Assembly (NCBI GenBank): GCA_004195635.1
Contig: PSPT01000028.1
Location: 1-35,819 of the forward strand
Reading direction: 5' to 3'
Length of the DNA: 35,819 bases
From: Methanobacteriota archaeon
GTDB lineage: Archaea; Thermoplasmatota; Poseidoniia; Poseidoniales; Poseidoniaceae
The position numbers and the translations under genes were made by a program. Of the stretch, positions 14,137 to 26,830 are shown piece after piece. The notes beneath the pieces were generated by a model, which worked only from the letters and a program-made list of their open reading frames with translations, was not told the origin of the DNA and ran no database searches. Every line of letters starts with the position of its first letter. The first letter of the stretch is position 1.

Positions 14137-15156
14137 TCAGACCCCCTGCTTGGATGATGTACTAACATATGTGATGTCAATTGGATATTCATCCTTGCCT
14201 TGGGCACGGACTGCATCGCGGAAACGAATCAATCTCTTTGCTGGGCCGGGTATACTTCCACGCATCAAAATATAATTATTATTGACTTCACCATAGTGAA
14301 GGAAACCACCATCAGGGGTGATTTCATTATCTTCAGGATTTGAAATGCGCATTACTTGTTTGTTAAATTCAGTACGCTGATGGTAACCAGTTTGGCCACC
14401 CTGTCGGATACTCTTTCGAACATATCCGTCACCGAAAGCACCCATGTTACCGTGTTGTCGGCGTTTCTTAGAGTTCTTGTGAGACAGTAGTTTACCACCG
14501 AATCTGCGAATAACACCTTGCCATCCATATCCCTTGGTTACGGCGACAACATCTGTGTATGTGCCTTCACTAAAGGCATCTGTGAAATTGAATTCTTGAC
14601 CGATTTGTTCACGTGCCCAGATGAGTTGTTGTACTGTGTCCCCACCAGAGAGTCCGATTTCCATTACTTCTGGGGTTTTAGAGGGGGTTGCACTTACCTT
14701 GCTAGGCATTGTTGCTGCAATAAGACGAACTGAAACGAGATCTTCGCTTTCAAGTGCTTCAAAATGAGCATCTGCATCGTGGTTCTTACGCATTGGCATA
14801 CGACGACTGAGTTGAGGGAAAGACTCTGCGAGTTCTTCGCTTTGAATCCATGCTTCGCCTGCAGTTTGAAGACCATATGCGGTCGAGCGGTATCCACGGA
14901 CACCAAGAATATACATTGAAGGAACTTCAATTACGGTCACTGGGATTCTAACTTCTTGACCTGCGCTCTTTGACTTCGGATTCGTATCTTTTGCGAGTAC
15001 GTGAGTCATTCCTGCTTTCCAGCCAGCGAATCCTTGGATACGAACTTCGCTACCTTCACCCTCTGGCCATGACTTGACGCGCCCGAAATGACGTGAAGCG
15101 CGCTTGCGCGGGCTAAATGCCATACTTCCTCTGCGTGGATGGTTTCTCTTACCCAT
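14137..15156 (-). CDS. rpl3p: 50S ribosomal protein uL3
   Basis: Large-subunit protein uL3, the first gene of the S10-spc block; 339 residues from ATG 15156. The archaeal/eukaryotic start MGKRNHPRRGSMAFSPRKRA is immediate, and GKLLSHKNSKKRRQHGNMGA and RKSIRQGGQTGYHQRTEFNK mark the core. A longer open frame to 15258 would add 34 residues that run into the GC-rich leader. I reject it because the family start matches 15156 and GGAGG (about 15167-15171) is well placed. Expected transcription starts near 15321, giving a leader of about 165 bases. Confidence 0.96.
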   Translation of the reverse strand: MGKRNHPRRGSMAFSPRKRASRHFGRVKSWPEGEGSEVRIQGFAGWKAGMTHVLAKDTNPKSKSAGQEVRIPVTVIEVPSMYILGVRGYRSTAYGLQTAGEAWIQSEELAESFPQLSRRMPMRKNHDADAHFEALESEDLVSVRLIAATMPSKVSATPSKTPEVMEIGLSGGDTVQQLIWAREQIGQEFNFTDAFSEGTYTDVVAVTKGYGWQGVIRRFGGKLLSHKNSKKRRQHGNMGAFGDGYVRKSIRQGGQTGYHQRTEFNKQVMRISNPEDNEITPDGGFLHYGEVNNNYILMRGSIPGPAKRLIRFRDAVRAQGKDEYPIDITYVSTSSKQGV

Positions 15157-15179
15157 GTTTTTTTTCCTCCAGTTTTTAC

Positions 15180-15322
15180 AGCGCGGGTGCCTACAATGCA
15201 GGGCCCGCACAGGCTCAGAAAGCGAAGGAACGGCCGTGACGCCGGCCTTTTCCCACAAGTGGGGAAGAGGTTCAGGGATTCGTGAGAATTGCCCTAAGCG
15301 TCTGGTCGCTCACCTTCTAAGC
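15180..15322 (-). ncRNA. Candidate structured leader RNA of the S10-spc block (or separate small RNA)
   Basis: This stretch is much richer in GC than its surroundings and contains several hairpins, read here in plus coordinates. They are GCGGG/CCCGC with an inner TGC/GCA (15183-15208), GGCCG/CGGCC around a 6-base loop (15232-15247), CCC/GGG extended by flanking pairs (15246-15270), and AGGG-ATTC/GAAT-CCCT with a 4-base loop (15274-15295). The loop reads GTGA on the plus strand, so a plus-strand RNA cannot be excluded. I find no match by eye to RNase P, SRP, 5S or tRNA consensus. Position between the promoter and uL3 favours a regulatory leader on the minus strand. Confidence 0.45.
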
Positions 15323-15350: not shown

Positions 15351-15658
15351 AATGAATGGTTCTGGTGAATGTCAATAACGGCACATAGAGCCTAAGTTTA
15401 GCCGCTAATTAATGACATTTTAACCTTGCCTTTAATCGACAAAAAGTGCACAAATATTGTTGTATTTTCCCATAATAAATACTGGGAATTATTTGGAATT
15501 ATTGACTTGGGAAAAACTATAGCATCCTAGGCCGGATAAATGAAAGTAAAGCCTAGTCGATTTAGGAGTGCAATTTTATTGCAAAATCAAAATTACTTTT
15601 GTGAAAGTGATGTCACCCCCCTCATCAAGGCTTTTGAACTGTGGGGACAGGAGAGGAG
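15351..15658. other. Divergent intergenic region
   Basis: An AT-rich spacer between the leftward ribosomal block and the rightward hef gene. I see no supportable gene or strong repeat. It should hold the hef promoter, but no single TATA box stands out. The end (15645-15658) is purine-rich with GGAGAGGAG just before the hef start. Confidence 0.5.
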
Positions 15659-17593
15659 ATGATGGCCCCTACAGTTGACCACCCGTTTCTCAAGGAAGGG
15701 GTGGCGGAAGCTAGGGCTTACCAATTGGATGCAGTGAGGTCAGCACTTGGCGCATTCACACTTCTTGTTTTACCAACTGGGCTAGGAAAAACTCCAATTG
15801 CTTGGATGACCGCTGCCGAAAGGTTACGAATCTCTGAAGGGTGGGTATTGATGGTAGCCCCTTCAAATCCATTAGTCAACCAGCATTTCAATGATGCAAT
15901 AGAGTGGCTCAATATTGCTGAAGAAGATATCTTAACTTTGACCGGAAGCATTAGTCCGGCAAAGAGAACTTCGCTATATGGTACTGCAAGGGTGATTATT
16001 GCTACTCCACAAATTATTCGAAATGATGTTGCATCGGGAATTCTAAGTTTAAGTCAATGTTCATTGCTAATTGTTGATGAAGCCCACCACGCAACTGGAA
16101 ATCACGCCGCCGCACAAGTAGGCGACCTTTACTGTGAAGCGGCTGCAAACGGACTTGTTTTGGCATGTACTGCAAGCCCAGGGTCAAAAGAAAAGCAGGT
16201 AGAGGAAGTTTGTGACCGACTTGGAATTGAGAGAATAATCACAAGACGAAATGATGATTACCTCGTCAAACCATATTTACAAAAAATGGATATTACCGAG
16301 ATAAGAATTCCCCCCAATGAAAAGATTACCCAAATGGCAGAACCTTTGCAACAATTATTGAATAACTATGTTGAAAGCCTGAGGCGCCAAGGTTTCTTAG
16401 TTACTCAACACGGTGTTTCGATGGGAGCACTTCGGCAAGCACAGGCGCGAATTAGTGACGCAATAGACAATGGACGTTCAACCGCATATACCGCGGCGAG
16501 GCAAAATGCCGATGCACAACGCCTCATGAATTTGTTATATCTCCTCAAAGGACAAAGTGTTGGCTCAGCACTTAGGCATCTCGAAAGATCAGATGAGAAT
16601 GCGGAGGCAGATAGCACCCAAGGGAGATTTTTGGCCCAGCCGCAAATAAGGGCATTAATCGGGCAACTTAGAGTATGTGAAATCACACATGAAAAATTGG
16701 CCAAAGTTTGCAGCCTTGTCAAGAAAGTAATCAATACAGGTGACGATAGTCGGATTATTGTATTCGCATCTTGGCGTGATAGCGTTTCTGAAATTGAATC
16801 AGAATTACAGAAGATCAAGGGCGTTAATGTTGAACAATTTATTGGACAATCAAGCAGAGGCGGACAAAAAGGAATGACGCAAAAGCAGCAAATATCGTGC
16901 CTGCAAAGATTCAGAGAGGGGCATAGTAATGTGTTGGTTGCGACTTCTGTAGGAGAGGAAGGTCTAGATGTTCCTGCTGCCGACCGAGTGATTTTCTATG
17001 AACCTGTTTCCAGTGAAATACGAACCATTCAAAGAAGAGGGAGAACTGCAAGACATCGCCAAGGAGATGTATTTGTTTTAGTTAGCGAAGATACCCGTGA
17101 CGAAGGCGTAAGACATGCCTCGGCTGCGAGGGAAAAAAGAATGCACTATGTCATTAGTAAAGTTAGGCGAAGAAGGAGGGCGCCACGTATCCACCCTTAC
17201 CCTGACCGATTTATTGAATCATTCATTGTAGATACTGCTGGAGAAAAAATGCCAGCAGCCGAATTTTTATTAGCAGAAGAAAAAAGATTGCAGCCCGAAT
17301 TAGGTAGTAAAGGACATACTATTGGTGGCTTACGCACAGATGGTGGCGAAAAACCAGATGTGCCGAGGACAAAAATCATCGGTAAGAGCCCAGCAACTAA
17401 TTCGGCATTAGTGCGCCCAAAACATCAAAATTCAATCTCAGATTACTTGAGTTCTGAACAATTAGATGCGCCGCCAACACCTCCCTCCACTCCATCGCCC
17501 ACACCTACCTCCCTCCACTCCATCGCCCACACCACAATCCAAACCGGCGAAATGGAGCAACCCTGTCTTGAATGCAGCAATAGAAGCGGCTGA
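15659..17593 (+). CDS. hef: Hef helicase part (SF2 DEAH, FANCM/XPF-type), interrupted
   Basis: The helicase half of archaeal Hef, a DNA repair protein that remodels and cuts stalled forks. Seen in the 644-residue product: Q-motif-like EARAYQLDAV, Walker A LPTGLGKT (39-45), DEAH (140-143), ACTASPGS, then the C-terminal RecA lobe with VATSVGEEGLDVPAADRVIF and QRRGRTARHRQGDVFVL. In intact Hef an ERCC4 nuclease and HhH domain follow in the same chain. Here the frame runs into a Pro-rich linker with a 28-bp tandem duplication and stops at 17593; the nuclease continues at 17684. The frame also opens with GTG 15641; I choose ATG 15659 (ATG 15662 is equal) because GGAGAGGAG lies upstream. Confidence 0.88.
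   Translation: MMAPTVDHPFLKEGVAEARAYQLDAVRSALGAFTLLVLPTGLGKTPIAWMTAAERLRISEGWVLMVAPSNPLVNQHFNDAIEWLNIAEEDILTLTGSISPAKRTSLYGTARVIIATPQIIRNDVASGILSLSQCSLLIVDEAHHATGNHAAAQVGDLYCEAAANGLVLACTASPGSKEKQVEEVCDRLGIERIITRRNDDYLVKPYLQKMDITEIRIPPNEKITQMAEPLQQLLNNYVESLRRQGFLVTQHGVSMGALRQAQARISDAIDNGRSTAYTAARQNADAQRLMNLLYLLKGQSVGSALRHLERSDENAEADSTQGRFLAQPQIRALIGQLRVCEITHEKLAKVCSLVKKVINTGDDSRIIVFASWRDSVSEIESELQKIKGVNVEQFIGQSSRGGQKGMTQKQQISCLQRFREGHSNVLVATSVGEEGLDVPAADRVIFYEPVSSEIRTIQRRGRTARHRQGDVFVLVSEDTRDEGVRHASAAREKRMHYVISKVRRRRRAPRIHPYPDRFIESFIVDTAGEKMPAAEFLLAEEKRLQPELGSKGHTIGGLRTDGGEKPDVPRTKIIGKSPATNSALVRPKHQNSISDYLSSEQLDAPPTPPSTPSPTPTSLHSIAHTTIQTGEMEQPCLECSNRSG
17479..17533 (+). repeat. 28-bp tandem duplication in the hef linker
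   Basis: Bases 17479-17505 and 17507-17533 are identical over 27 bases, separated by one T, giving a period of 28. Copy 1 read in the helicase frame and copy 2 read one frame on both spell PPSTPSPTP. This shows that a coding unit was duplicated and, not being a multiple of three, shifted the frame by one. Confidence 0.95.
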
Positions 17594-17647
17594 GGATAAT
17601 GTGCAATCACATATTGAGGACCCGGGGGAAGGCCAAAATGGCGAAGA

Positions 17648-17660
17648 GGGAAAAGTCTGA
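17648..17660 (+). other. GGGAAAA heptamer at the hef frame switch
   Basis: In the frame that continues copy 2 of the 28-bp repeat the codons read GAG GGA AAA GTC TGA. G GGA AAA has the X XXY YYZ layout of a minus-one slippery site. A minus-one shift here reads on as SLIVRLDHREM, the expected first strand of the ERCC4 nuclease. A lost A in the A4 run would give the same picture. I see no obvious strong hairpin downstream. Confidence 0.55.
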
Positions 17661-17683
17661 TTGTACGGCTTGACCATAGAGAG

Positions 17684-18394
17684 ATGGCGAGTTCAATCCT
17701 AGCAAATCTACGAGCGCTAAAAATTGACGTAGATATTGAAACCTTAGCAGTCGGCGATATTGCAATTGGAGATCTTATCATTATTGAAAGAAAAACCAGC
17801 CGCGATTTAATAGATTCATTATTGGATAAGAGAATATTCAGACAGGCAAGAAGACTGATTGCCTGTGCACCACAGGCCTTGTTGATAGTTGAAGGTGCAG
17901 ATTCAATGTCCAGAGCGGTTCATTCAAATGCAATTGCCGGACTATTAGCCCATCTTTCTGCAGACATTGGACTGACAATTATTCCTACCAAAAACACTCA
18001 AGCAACCGCGCGAGTTGTGGCTATGCTGGCAAAAAAAGAAAAACGACGGATTGACAAACTTGCAAAGAGACTCAATTCTCGACTAGTTAATTCAGAAGAA
18101 GAGAGAATTGAAAGAAGACCAAAATCTGCTTGGACCAAGCACCATGCTAGCGGGAGTCTTGGAGTTGAATCAAATATGACTAAAGGACAAAGTGACACTA
18201 AGGCAGCAAAGGAGAAATTTGCTAGAGGCGTAGAAGTCCTACAAGCATTCCCTTCAATAGGGCGAGTAAGGGCGAGGAAATTGATGCTTGAATTCGGCAG
18301 TCCGGCTAAAGTATTCAGTGCAAGTGAAGATAGATTGGCGAGGAATGGAATCTCACCTCAAAGACTTGCACAAATGCTAGAAATACTAGGATGA
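17684..18394 (+). CDS. hef: Hef nuclease part (ERCC4 domain plus HhH), separated by frameshift
   Basis: The XPF-family nuclease half of Hef, 236 residues from ATG 17684. Seen: GDIAIGDLIIIERKTSRDLI, the GDx(n)ERKxxxD catalytic motif, then KRIFRQARRL and ALLIVEG. The C-terminal tandem helix-hairpin-helix has FPSIGRVRARKLMLEFGS. The true domain begins upstream in the same frame (KSLIVRLDHREM, from about 17651), with a stop at 17615-17617 before that. Starting at ATG 17684 would remove the conserved DHRE aspartate, so an isolated product may be inactive. It converges with the CCG gene across 149 bases without a visible gene. Confidence 0.85.
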   Translation: MASSILANLRALKIDVDIETLAVGDIAIGDLIIIERKTSRDLIDSLLDKRIFRQARRLIACAPQALLIVEGADSMSRAVHSNAIAGLLAHLSADIGLTIIPTKNTQATARVVAMLAKKEKRRIDKLAKRLNSRLVNSEEERIERRPKSAWTKHHASGSLGVESNMTKGQSDTKAAKEKFARGVEVLQAFPSIGRVRARKLMLEFGSPAKVFSASEDRLARNGISPQRLAQMLEILG

Positions 18395-23398: not shown

Positions 23399-26300
23399 TT
23401 ACAATTCTTGCTGACTCAACCATTGCTCGCCATAATGTTCCCACTGATCCATTGACCAGCCAGGTGGTAATCCTTCAGCGGGCACAGGCGGTGGACCGGC
23501 TGGAGCGGAGGGCGTAGGTTCGGGAGCCACAACAGGAGGTTCTGAAATAACACTACCATCAATATTCGGAGTGATATCAGTGGCGACCTGTGTTTCAGTC
23601 GAAGGGAAAGACGGAACATCCTTCACGAGAGATGCTCCAAGCATTGAGGTATCTGGACCAAGAGGCATTGGGCTGCCTCCGATACTTGAGAAGTCTGAAG
23701 TCATGTCGGGTGCGGCTTGAACCTCCCCATACATGGAAGCGCTTGCACTTTCATATCCATCCATATCTTCCTCCTCAAATTCTGGTTTTAAGACTCTGAT
23801 TAAGGTGACCAATAAGGCAATGATAACCAATGAACCGAAGCCGATTGTAAGAATATTAATCACAACACTTGATGAACCTCCTTCATCATCAACTTCTGAA
23901 CCACCAGTTGGAGACATCCGTTGCAAGGTAATTTCCATTGTTGAAGATTGAGCATCTTCAACTGTATTTGATTTAGCCCAAAGAATGAACGAAACGGTCA
24001 CTTCTTCCGAATCCAAGTTAATGAGAGTTCCTTCACTTACTTCAACGGTAACATGGATTATTCTTTCATCACCAGGTGCACTTGTTTCAAGAACAACAGT
24101 TCGGTCTTGCTGATTTATTCGAACTGTCATGTAATTAGAAGATTCGCCGGCGGTGTAAGAAATATCCACGCTTTGAACTCCAGTGTATTGATTTCTCAAC
24201 ACGAAAAGTAACTCCAATTCTTCAGTTGGCTCAGAGATTGTAACCGGAGATGGCTCAATCAAACGAAGCCAGTTTTGGCTACCAACACTAAAAATTGCAG
24301 TTCCAGAGCCGCTTTGAGTCGGGTCATTTACACTTGTCGAAACTACATCCATAGAGATTTGACCAGAAATGTCACTATCAAAAGCAAACTTAACAGTCAC
24401 GTTTGTTGAAGCTCCAGGGGCAATAGCAATAGTCGTATTATCATTCAAACTGTCAATGAACGCACTCATTCCATCGGGGGTCACCAATGAAAGCTCAAAA
24501 CTATCATCCTCATTACCGTCATTTCGTATTTCAAACTGAATTGATTTCTCGCGGTCACCGGGAATGTAGGACTCCTCGGGGTCTTCATCACTTACCCAAG
24601 GGGCTGATGTAGGCAAAACCTCAACAGAAATTATTGCCGAATCATAAACACTTGGATCATCAATGGAGGCAACATTAACTCTTGCACTGTATAATCTAGG
24701 AGGCAACATTAGAGGCATAGGTAAATTAAGAGTTATAGAAGTTGAACCTTCCCAAGCATCTAAAACAGTTGTTTCGGAAGTTGACAATACACCCCTTAAA
24801 ATCCAATCTGACTGGACTAATTCAACAGAAAATTGCTCATCATCATTGCCCAAATTGAAGATGTCAATATTGATGCTTTGTGCAACACCATTTGCACTTG
24901 CAGTAACTGACAAAGTATCGGCAACAACATTAACGAGGCGCAATTCCGGCACATTGATATTACGTATCAAAACATCATTTCCGTGTACTGTCCCTACACA
25001 TGAGGTGCAGGATGCACGAATTGAGACAGAGGTAAGACCAGGTGCGGCATCAGCGGCAGCTGTAATATTAACAACGAAATCAAAAGACTCGCCCTTTGAA
25101 AGAACAATTGGCAAAAAGGATGCACCAGTTTCATTTTTGAAAGCGGTAGCCCACCCTGCAGAAGGGAAACTCGGAAGTAAATTATACTCGGCATCTAAGT
25201 TCCCTGAATTTTGTAAGCGCATAATAATTTCACCAGATTCACTTGGCAATAAATCAAGTGCCAATAATGGTGAAAAGGAAGATAGCATGACTCCATATTG
25301 CTCTGACACTACAACAGAGGAAGATATACTACCTTTGACATCGGCATTTTGAGGAGTGCCTTCCTCAAACCAAACATTCCATGTTACTGATTGAACGTCT
25401 GCACCAGGCGGGATGCTGAGATTAATCCACATTTCAGTGGTCTCACCGGCGGGGATTGCTGGAAGAAGAACTGCATTTCCATGCTGATTTTGGTTCGCAG
25501 AATCAATTCGAAGCATTGGATTCATAGGATCCATCCAAGATTCATTTGAAACATTGGTATTAACTTCAAAAGTTTGTGATTTGTATCCATTATTGGTAAC
25601 CATACAATGTAAACTGATAGTTTCGGCTGGAACTGCAGTATAACCTGCTTCGGGATTATTACAATTTGTAGTCAATGTGTATTCGTCAACTTTTTCAACG
25701 GCGAAAATAATCCAATCATCTATGTGTAATCCTTCATCAGCAAACGCAGAATCACTTGAGAACAAGAGACCGTATGACCATGTCTGCCCTCCCAATTCAA
25801 CAGAAGATGGCCTCCAAGTAATGTTGGACCATTGGTCATTGCCTTGATTGGGTGAATAATCGGTTAGATTTTTGACAAGACTAGAACCGCCGGTACGCCA
25901 TAATTCGATAGCCACTTCATCACCAATGGACATGGTACCCCATGTTGAAAGGTGGAAGTCGAGTGAAACATATTCAACAGTATACAATTGTCTTTTACAA
26001 TAATAATAACTGTAAACGAGAGGAGCGCCTGGCTCTTGAACATCTTGGTTACAGCCACCACTTTGAGGTGCAGTAGCAGGCCAATATCCACGAACTAAGC
26101 GATCTGCATTTCGTCCACTGGCATATTGACTTCCCGGGTCGGAGTGACGCCAATGCTTTGAACCAACAACACCACCATTGTCCTCTTGCCATGCACCTAC
26201 TGCTTCTGCATCTCCCCCGCCTTGGTATCCGAGAGGGAGGAAGGTAAGACGGTCAGCAGACAGTTCAGTTCCATCCATCACGTCTGAATCAAAAGCAACT

Positions 26301-26830
26301 GGGATTCGAGATTCAATGACGTCATCATCGTTTTTAGTATCAGCAAAATAGTTGATTGATGCGCGGATAATCCAGCCGCCTTCTAGTGAATCATTGATCA
26401 ATTCCGAATGTGCTGCCGAAGGAGTCCACAGATATTGATTTGAATCCTGTTGTCCACCATACAAATCAGTTGCAGTCCAATTGACCGACCAATCAACATA
26501 GCCAATTGGATGAACCGCTTCAACCATCACCAATGCAGATTGCGGAGTTGCGGAGGTACCTGCGCGTTGTACTGTAATAGTTAGAGGCAATGTCGTTCCA
26601 GCGAAAATAAAAGGCACAGGAGTTCCATCTGGATTGTACCAAGTATCGGTATGAACAGAAGCATTACCTAGTTCAACAGAAACGATGTAAAAATTGTCAT
26701 TAGTACCGCCTCGAGCAGAAGCCGCATCGGCGAGTGGTGCAGTAAAAAGCACGCCAGCGGCTTGGCCGATAAGGATTGCCAAGAGGAGGAAGGATACTGC
26801 AGTTCGCGAGCGCATATCATTGCCCAGCAT
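23399..26830 (-). CDS. Large secreted, membrane-anchored beta-sandwich protein (NEW3/CARDB-type)
   Basis: 1143 residues. A signal peptide lies at the start (MRSRTAVSFLLLAILIGQAA after an alternative ATG at 26815). The bulk is a series of extracellular beta-sandwich repeats with phrases such as RLQNSGNLDAEYNL, FNLGNDDEQFSVELVQSDW and IRNDGNEDDSFELSL, typical of NEW3/CARDB-like adhesion domains. A segment around 230-380 resembles a jelly-roll. One transmembrane helix near the C-terminus (INILTIGFGSLVIIALLVTL) leaves an acidic, Pro-rich cytoplasmic tail ending in GLPPGWSMDQWEHYGEQWL, a WW-like short motif. Function is probably cell-surface binding. Exact ligand unknown. The 169 bases upstream hold a TTTAATTTTA element near 26915-26928 and no gene. 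Confidence 0.75.
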   Translation of the reverse strand: MLGNDMRSRTAVSFLLLAILIGQAAGVLFTAPLADAASARGGTNDNFYIVSVELGNASVHTDTWYNPDGTPVPFIFAGTTLPLTITVQRAGTSATPQSALVMVEAVHPIGYVDWSVNWTATDLYGGQQDSNQYLWTPSAAHSELINDSLEGGWIIRASINYFADTKNDDDVIESRIPVAFDSDVMDGTELSADRLTFLPLGYQGGGDAEAVGAWQEDNGGVVGSKHWRHSDPGSQYASGRNADRLVRGYWPATAPQSGGCNQDVQEPGAPLVYSYYYCKRQLYTVEYVSLDFHLSTWGTMSIGDEVAIELWRTGGSSLVKNLTDYSPNQGNDQWSNITWRPSSVELGGQTWSYGLLFSSDSAFADEGLHIDDWIIFAVEKVDEYTLTTNCNNPEAGYTAVPAETISLHCMVTNNGYKSQTFEVNTNVSNESWMDPMNPMLRIDSANQNQHGNAVLLPAIPAGETTEMWINLSIPPGADVQSVTWNVWFEEGTPQNADVKGSISSSVVVSEQYGVMLSSFSPLLALDLLPSESGEIIMRLQNSGNLDAEYNLLPSFPSAGWATAFKNETGASFLPIVLSKGESFDFVVNITAAADAAPGLTSVSIRASCTSCVGTVHGNDVLIRNINVPELRLVNVVADTLSVTASANGVAQSINIDIFNLGNDDEQFSVELVQSDWILRGVLSTSETTVLDAWEGSTSITLNLPMPLMLPPRLYSARVNVASIDDPSVYDSAIISVEVLPTSAPWVSDEDPEESYIPGDREKSIQFEIRNDGNEDDSFELSLVTPDGMSAFIDSLNDNTTIAIAPGASTNVTVKFAFDSDISGQISMDVVSTSVNDPTQSGSGTAIFSVGSQNWLRLIEPSPVTISEPTEELELLFVLRNQYTGVQSVDISYTAGESSNYMTVRINQQDRTVVLETSAPGDERIIHVTVEVSEGTLINLDSEEVTVSFILWAKSNTVEDAQSSTMEITLQRMSPTGGSEVDDEGGSSSVVINILTIGFGSLVIIALLVTLIRVLKPEFEEEDMDGYESASASMYGEVQAAPDMTSDFSSIGGSPMPLGPDTSMLGASLVKDVPSFPSTETQVATDITPNIDGSVISEPPVVAPEPTPSAPAGPPPVPAEGLPPGWSMDQWEHYGEQWLSQQEL

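Follow-up and report, generated by a model that had tools for sequence, protein, structure and literature searches.

How is an archaeal Hef protein made when its helicase and nuclease halves are encoded in different reading frames? Hef is the archaeal relative of FANCM and XPF, and in eukaryotes the active helicase (FANCM) and the active nuclease (XPF) reside on separate proteins. Hef itself unites a helicase domain with a nuclease domain and works at forks that have stalled; in Haloferax its role overlaps in part with that of Hjc (PMC7776575). In the window, by which we mean the whole 35,819-nt stretch of DNA that was analyzed, these two domains occupy two ORFs and would be joined in a single polypeptide only through the frameshift proposed below. 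The first ORF encodes an SF2 helicase with Hef-type sequence (XPF/Mus81/FANCM family), and the euryarchaeal Hef of Pyrococcus is the best match for both halves: the closest solved structure to the helicase half is 1WP9 (Pyrococcus Hef helicase), and the best solved match to the nuclease half is the Hef nuclease 1J22 (E = 2.8e-22). The nuclease half carries the GDxnERKx3D motif and a helix-hairpin-helix (HhH) region, for which the HHH_5 match (E = 6.5e-4) falls under the Pfam cutoff. The identification of the split gene as hef in the initial annotation is therefore borne out by the Pfam, NCBIfam, and structural matches. As to the start of the helicase ORF, the ORF list gives a GTG at 15641, but an ATG at 15659 or 15662 is more likely. 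The L3 ribosomal operon lies divergent from hef (14137 to 15258 versus 15659 onward), a neighborhood found again in most relatives. Elsewhere in the window, a 1,143-aa ORF on the minus strand (23399 to 26830) recovered no Pfam match at E 0.001.

Table 1. Features of the hef locus, in window coordinates
Feature	Position	Strand	Remarks
hef helicase ORF as assembled	15659..17593	+	Pfam DEAD, Helicase_C; NCBIfam Hef nuclease PRK13766, E 2e-160
PCNA-box-like motif QNSISDYL	17426..17449	+	upstream of the break
Two exact 27-bp copies, 28-bp period, in Pro/Thr-rich linker	17479..17533	+	frameshift specific to the window
25 codons up to and including the slip codons, synonymous positions conserved between g1 and g11	17580..17654	+	candidate cis signal
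SD-like GGGGG (GGAGG in L032)	17624..17628	+	19 nt upstream of slip; candidate stimulator
Slippery heptamer G GGA AAA	17648..17654	+	
ERCC4 nuclease plus HhH region (SLIVRLDHREM...)	17654..18394	+	-1 frame; stop 18392-18394
TGA ending the linker helicase frame	17658..17660	+	one codon past the slip

The initial annotation attributed the split to a 28-bp duplication and a slip site that compensate for each other. The duplication is present in the sequence as assembled, as an exact direct repeat (27/27 bases, 17479-17505 and 17507-17533, start to start 28) for which TRF reports a period of 28 and a 100% match, and, as had been claimed, each copy encodes PPSTPSPTP in its own frame, copy 1 in the helicase frame and copy 2 in the next. 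Because of this frameshift, the helicase ORF ends early at TGA 17591-17593, and three stops in the helicase frame (17591, 17597, and 17615), rather than the two originally counted, lie between the repeat and the slip site; the window copy as assembled would thus stop ahead of the slip. A same-genus relative (G001, locus L032; contig JABIHC010000127.1, MAG SI053_bin59), whose nuclease domain is 97% identical to that of the window, carries at the position of the repeat an in-frame Pro/Thr array with a 45-bp unit; this array is longer than the one in the window, and the difference in length is no multiple of 3. In the relative the helicase frame stays open across the array, yet the ERCC4 domain is still in the -1 frame. 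Since this relative needs the slip alone, the repeat and the slip site are rejected as a compensating pair: the -1 step occurs in both genomes, and the frameshift in the repeat in the window alone, as a local repeat-length mutation or an assembly error. The likeliest reading of the 28-bp repeat is a minisatellite that has recently gained or lost bases or has been misassembled, and its frameshift is separate from the slip-site mechanism.

At the slip site, the helicase and ERCC4 ORFs overlap, the second in the -1 frame, with an in-phase X XXY YYZ heptamer within the overlap. The linker frame reads GAG GGA AAA GTC TGA, and the -1 frame from the slip reads GGG AAA AGT CTG ATT GTA and runs into the ERCC4 domain, in agreement with the frames first assigned to a -1 slip at G GGA AAA. 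This heptamer does not occur in phase in 9,701 codons of window genes or in the longest ORFs (18,102 codons in all) at 21 Hef loci outside g1, g4, g10, and g11 (see below). Any in-phase X XXY YYZ heptamer was encountered 11 times in the 9,701 codons, so about 0.016 would be expected in the 14-codon overlap. Among 312 genomes of the order, a 29-base composite of the upstream and slip sequences, allowing up to 2 mismatches, is found only in the four genomes of g1 and g11, in all of them at hef; a search of viral contigs recovered no match to it. A scan of genome contigs recovered only the relative already known.

The case for recoding is built on four genomes, all of them draft assemblies, two each from g1, which includes the window, and g11; these are sister genera, about 48% identical in the nuclease domain. 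In all four, the ERCC4 domain is in the -1 frame of the helicase and is joined to it at the same in-phase heptamer, and the site, the frame, and the missing start codon are all kept across the two genera. The helicase frame of L032 ends in EEGKV* at GAG GGA AAA GTC TGA, and the g11 junction reads CCG or CAG GGA AAA GGC, with a stop after four further codons; the codon before the heptamer varies freely among the four genomes (GAG, CCG, or CAG). No ATG, GTG, or TTG precedes the nuclease domain in g1 or g11. In g1 the first such codon lies 8 codons into the domain; in g11 it is codon 65 of L033 and codon 19 of L034. Each of these is at or past the DHRE strand.

The ERCC4 frame is open and its catalytic residues are kept in all four genomes, and its dN/dS of 0.05 in g1 and 0.12 in g11, near the helicase value, indicates a nuclease under strong purifying selection. 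This selection and the kept catalytic residues, combined with the lack of a canonical start, imply that the nuclease must be made. Over the 30 codons upstream of the slip, 12 of 15 residues conserved between g1 and g11 use identical codons, compared to 29 to 30% gene-wide (log10 P = -4.8); this agreement ends at the slip, and no better stretch was found elsewhere in the gene. There was no such excess in a control of 56 pairs of single-ORF Hef genes (122 of 319 same-codon positions versus 112 expected). Within this region, GGRGG lies 19 nt before the heptamer in 4/4 recoded genes, with a predicted duplex with the anti-SD of -8.4 to -9.5 kcal/mol, and the G/A difference between the g1 genomes keeps the pairing. 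SD-like sequences also precede 25 of the 31 window genes. In dnaX the spacing from SD to slip is about 10 nt, shorter than the 19 nt here, and the SD-like element is therefore a candidate only. An internal ATG with an SD in the region 17624-17640 was rejected as a start, as it is in the +1 frame, the wrong one, and is ACG in L032. Past the slip, we found no significant RNA fold and no structure shared among the genes (z of -0.45 to +2.4). The genome, a MAG that is about 80% complete, encodes tRNA-Gly(UCC) and tRNA-Lys(UUU), each of which can pair again after a -1 shift.

We consider it likely, judging from these sequence comparisons, that hef of g1 and g11 uses programmed -1 ribosomal frameshifting to yield a helicase and a helicase-nuclease fusion. 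It would be one gene in two frames, helicase then nuclease. A ribosome that has passed the helicase and the disordered linker would meet G GGA AAA with tRNA-Gly(UCC) on GGA and tRNA-Lys(UUU) on AAA. The majority of ribosomes would stay in frame and stop within one to five codons, releasing a helicase with a PCNA-box-like motif, and a fraction would move back by one base onto GGG AAA and read on through the ERCC4 nuclease to give full Hef. The upstream sequence, perhaps including the SD-like GGRGG, would raise the slip rate. We infer the slippage, its rate, the stimulator, and the use of the gene as a nuclease-optional, PCNA-tethered fork helicase.

To place this arrangement, we surveyed hef in 171 genomes of the family and in a second family of the order. 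Unlike in g1 and g11, Hef elsewhere in the order, and mostly in the phylum too, is a single ORF: it is mostly one ORF of about 830 to 1,010 aa in g3, g5, g7, g8, and g9, and mostly single in the second family as well. Short ERCC4 frames overlapping the helicase end were recovered in g1 (2 genomes), g11 (2), g10 (4), and g4 (2). In g10, where the helicase end is fully visible in 3 of the 4 genomes (L035, L036, and L038), the ERCC4 domain is a separate cistron, also in the -1 frame, with an ATG that shares bases with the helicase stop (TAATG or ATGA), and is likely translationally coupled to the helicase. The g4 junction has A8 in L039 (G034), with the nuclease in +1, and A9 in L040 (G035), with the nuclease in -1; these runs are candidates for slippage on poly-A or for phase variation of the homopolymer, and the case is separate from that of g1 and g11. 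The nuclease domain is gone in a helicase-only Hef beside L3 in one g10 genome (L130, G163), g6 (L131, G111), and g2 (L132, G003). In other families of the phylum, the short ERCC4 frames of L120 to L122 are cut by or near contig ends, and those of family f5 (L123 to L128) are stand-alone nucleases with no overlapping helicase. The f5 XPF-type nuclease is 215 to 222 aa long, and in L123 (G385) it is preceded, at a distance of about 2.3 kb, by a C-terminal fragment of a helicase. The Hef tree and the L3-L4-L23-L2 tree agree in uniting g1 and g11 as sisters (100/99 in both), with g10 as sister to the pair (94/93 in the Hef tree and 91/91 in the ribosomal-protein tree) and g4 grouping with g3. From the trees and the distribution of single ORFs, a fused Hef is therefore the ancestral state; a single origin of the -1 overlap, before g10, g1, and g11 split, is probable, and the g4 break is independent of theirs.

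This distribution bears on how else the g1 and g11 junction might be read. The nuclease could be a separate, coupled cistron created by gene fission, reinitiating near the helicase stop on a noncanonical start. The sister genus g10 offers a precedent in its overlapping ATG, likewise in the -1 frame, and in g1 a CTG overlaps the TGA of the helicase (CTGA), so reinitiation there could occur. However, g11 has no ATG, GTG, or TTG, and L034 has CTC where L033 has ATC; hence, there is no shared near-cognate start, and fission leaves both the shared in-phase heptamer and the synonymous conservation that ends there unexplained. We regard it as unlikely. Absence of the nuclease domain in g2, g6, and one g10 genome shows it to be dispensable in related lineages and might suggest that the nuclease half of g1 and g11 is a pseudogene decaying after a frameshift, but the low dN/dS, the open frame, and the conserved catalytic residues in all four genomes make this very improbable.

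Error and slippage of other kinds fare no better as accounts of the -1 step. The A4 run might be a sequencing or assembly error: all of the genomes are drafts, and the repeat of the window may itself be an error. The initial annotation held that relatives with one repeat unit and AAAAA would point to an ordinary intact gene; an in-frame repeat was indeed seen, but the run in the relatives is AAAA. The same frame and site recur in four separate assemblies of different species that diverge by 5.5% to far more. This refutes sequence error at the A4 run, which has a negligible probability as an explanation, although the repeat may still hold an error or a mutation found in this genome only. Slippage could instead occur during transcription, which is established on 9-A runs in bacteria (PMC5009743) and would suit the A8/A9 runs of g4; with a run of only four A in g1 and g11, and with upstream codon conservation and a tandem XXXYYYZ form that fit ribosomal slippage better, we think this highly improbable. 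The tandem array of the window, offset in length from that of L032 by a number not divisible by 3, might alternatively suggest phase variation, one of the options in the initial annotation, with hef turned on and off by the 28-bp unit. The out-of-frame state is seen in the window only, the 45-bp unit of L032 keeps the frame, and the -1 step is left unexplained, so that we give this idea very little credence.

Programmed -1 frameshifting at hef would be a predicted addition to what is known of such recoding in archaea. The only demonstrated archaeal case is fucA1 of Saccharolobus solfataricus (PMC8211752), which like hef has -1 overlapping ORFs and a slippery heptamer in an archaeal chromosome. 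Its split, however, is listed only for the two S. solfataricus strains (PMC8211752), whereas that of hef is common to two genera and, unlike that of fucA1, parts two whole enzymes. Mg-chelatase of Methanocaldococcus and Methanococcus likewise has a conserved predicted -1 site in overlapping ORFs, but in another gene and at A_AAA_AAR (PMC5009743). In viruses of halophilic archaea, G_GGA_AAG and G_GGA_AAC serve as shift sites; the viral -1 cases are predictions, partly at G_GGA_AAN, and G_GGA_AAG is highly shift-prone in Escherichia coli (PMC5009743). The bacterial dnaX gene (tau/gamma) resembles hef in making, from one gene with a slippery heptamer, two products with a common N terminus, and in some bacteria it is the longer product that arises by frameshifting, with a zero-frame stop directly after the site, as in hef (PMC5009743). 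It is nevertheless a different gene in a different domain of life, and hef has no detected downstream stem-loop and a more distant SD-like element. A search for Hef frameshifting found no paper in the literature library used.

What the two products might do is suggested by a PCNA-box-like motif upstream of the break. Of 15 Hef loci checked, 14 have a Qxx[IL]xx[FY] sequence at the corresponding position; in the remaining one, L033, the helicase ORF is interrupted by an N-run. The motif is kept in the helicase-only Hef of g2, g6, and one g10 genome. The short product would therefore be a PCNA-tethered, FANCM-like helicase, to which the long product would add the nuclease. Tentatively, and as a possibility that we do not favor outright, the Hef nuclease may be an optional module in the order, which selection uncoupled from the PCNA-tethered helicase at one junction in several ways: -1 ribosomal frameshifting in g1 and g11, coupled reinitiation in g10, poly-A slippage in g4, and loss in g2, g6, and part of g10. 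A 2021 review counts one demonstrated archaeal -1 frameshift, and hef is a candidate conserved across genera in a replication-fork repair gene. If the proposal is true, archaea adjust the proportions of two forms of an enzyme by recoding, and the locus would let one ask directly why a fork helicase is at times without its nuclease.
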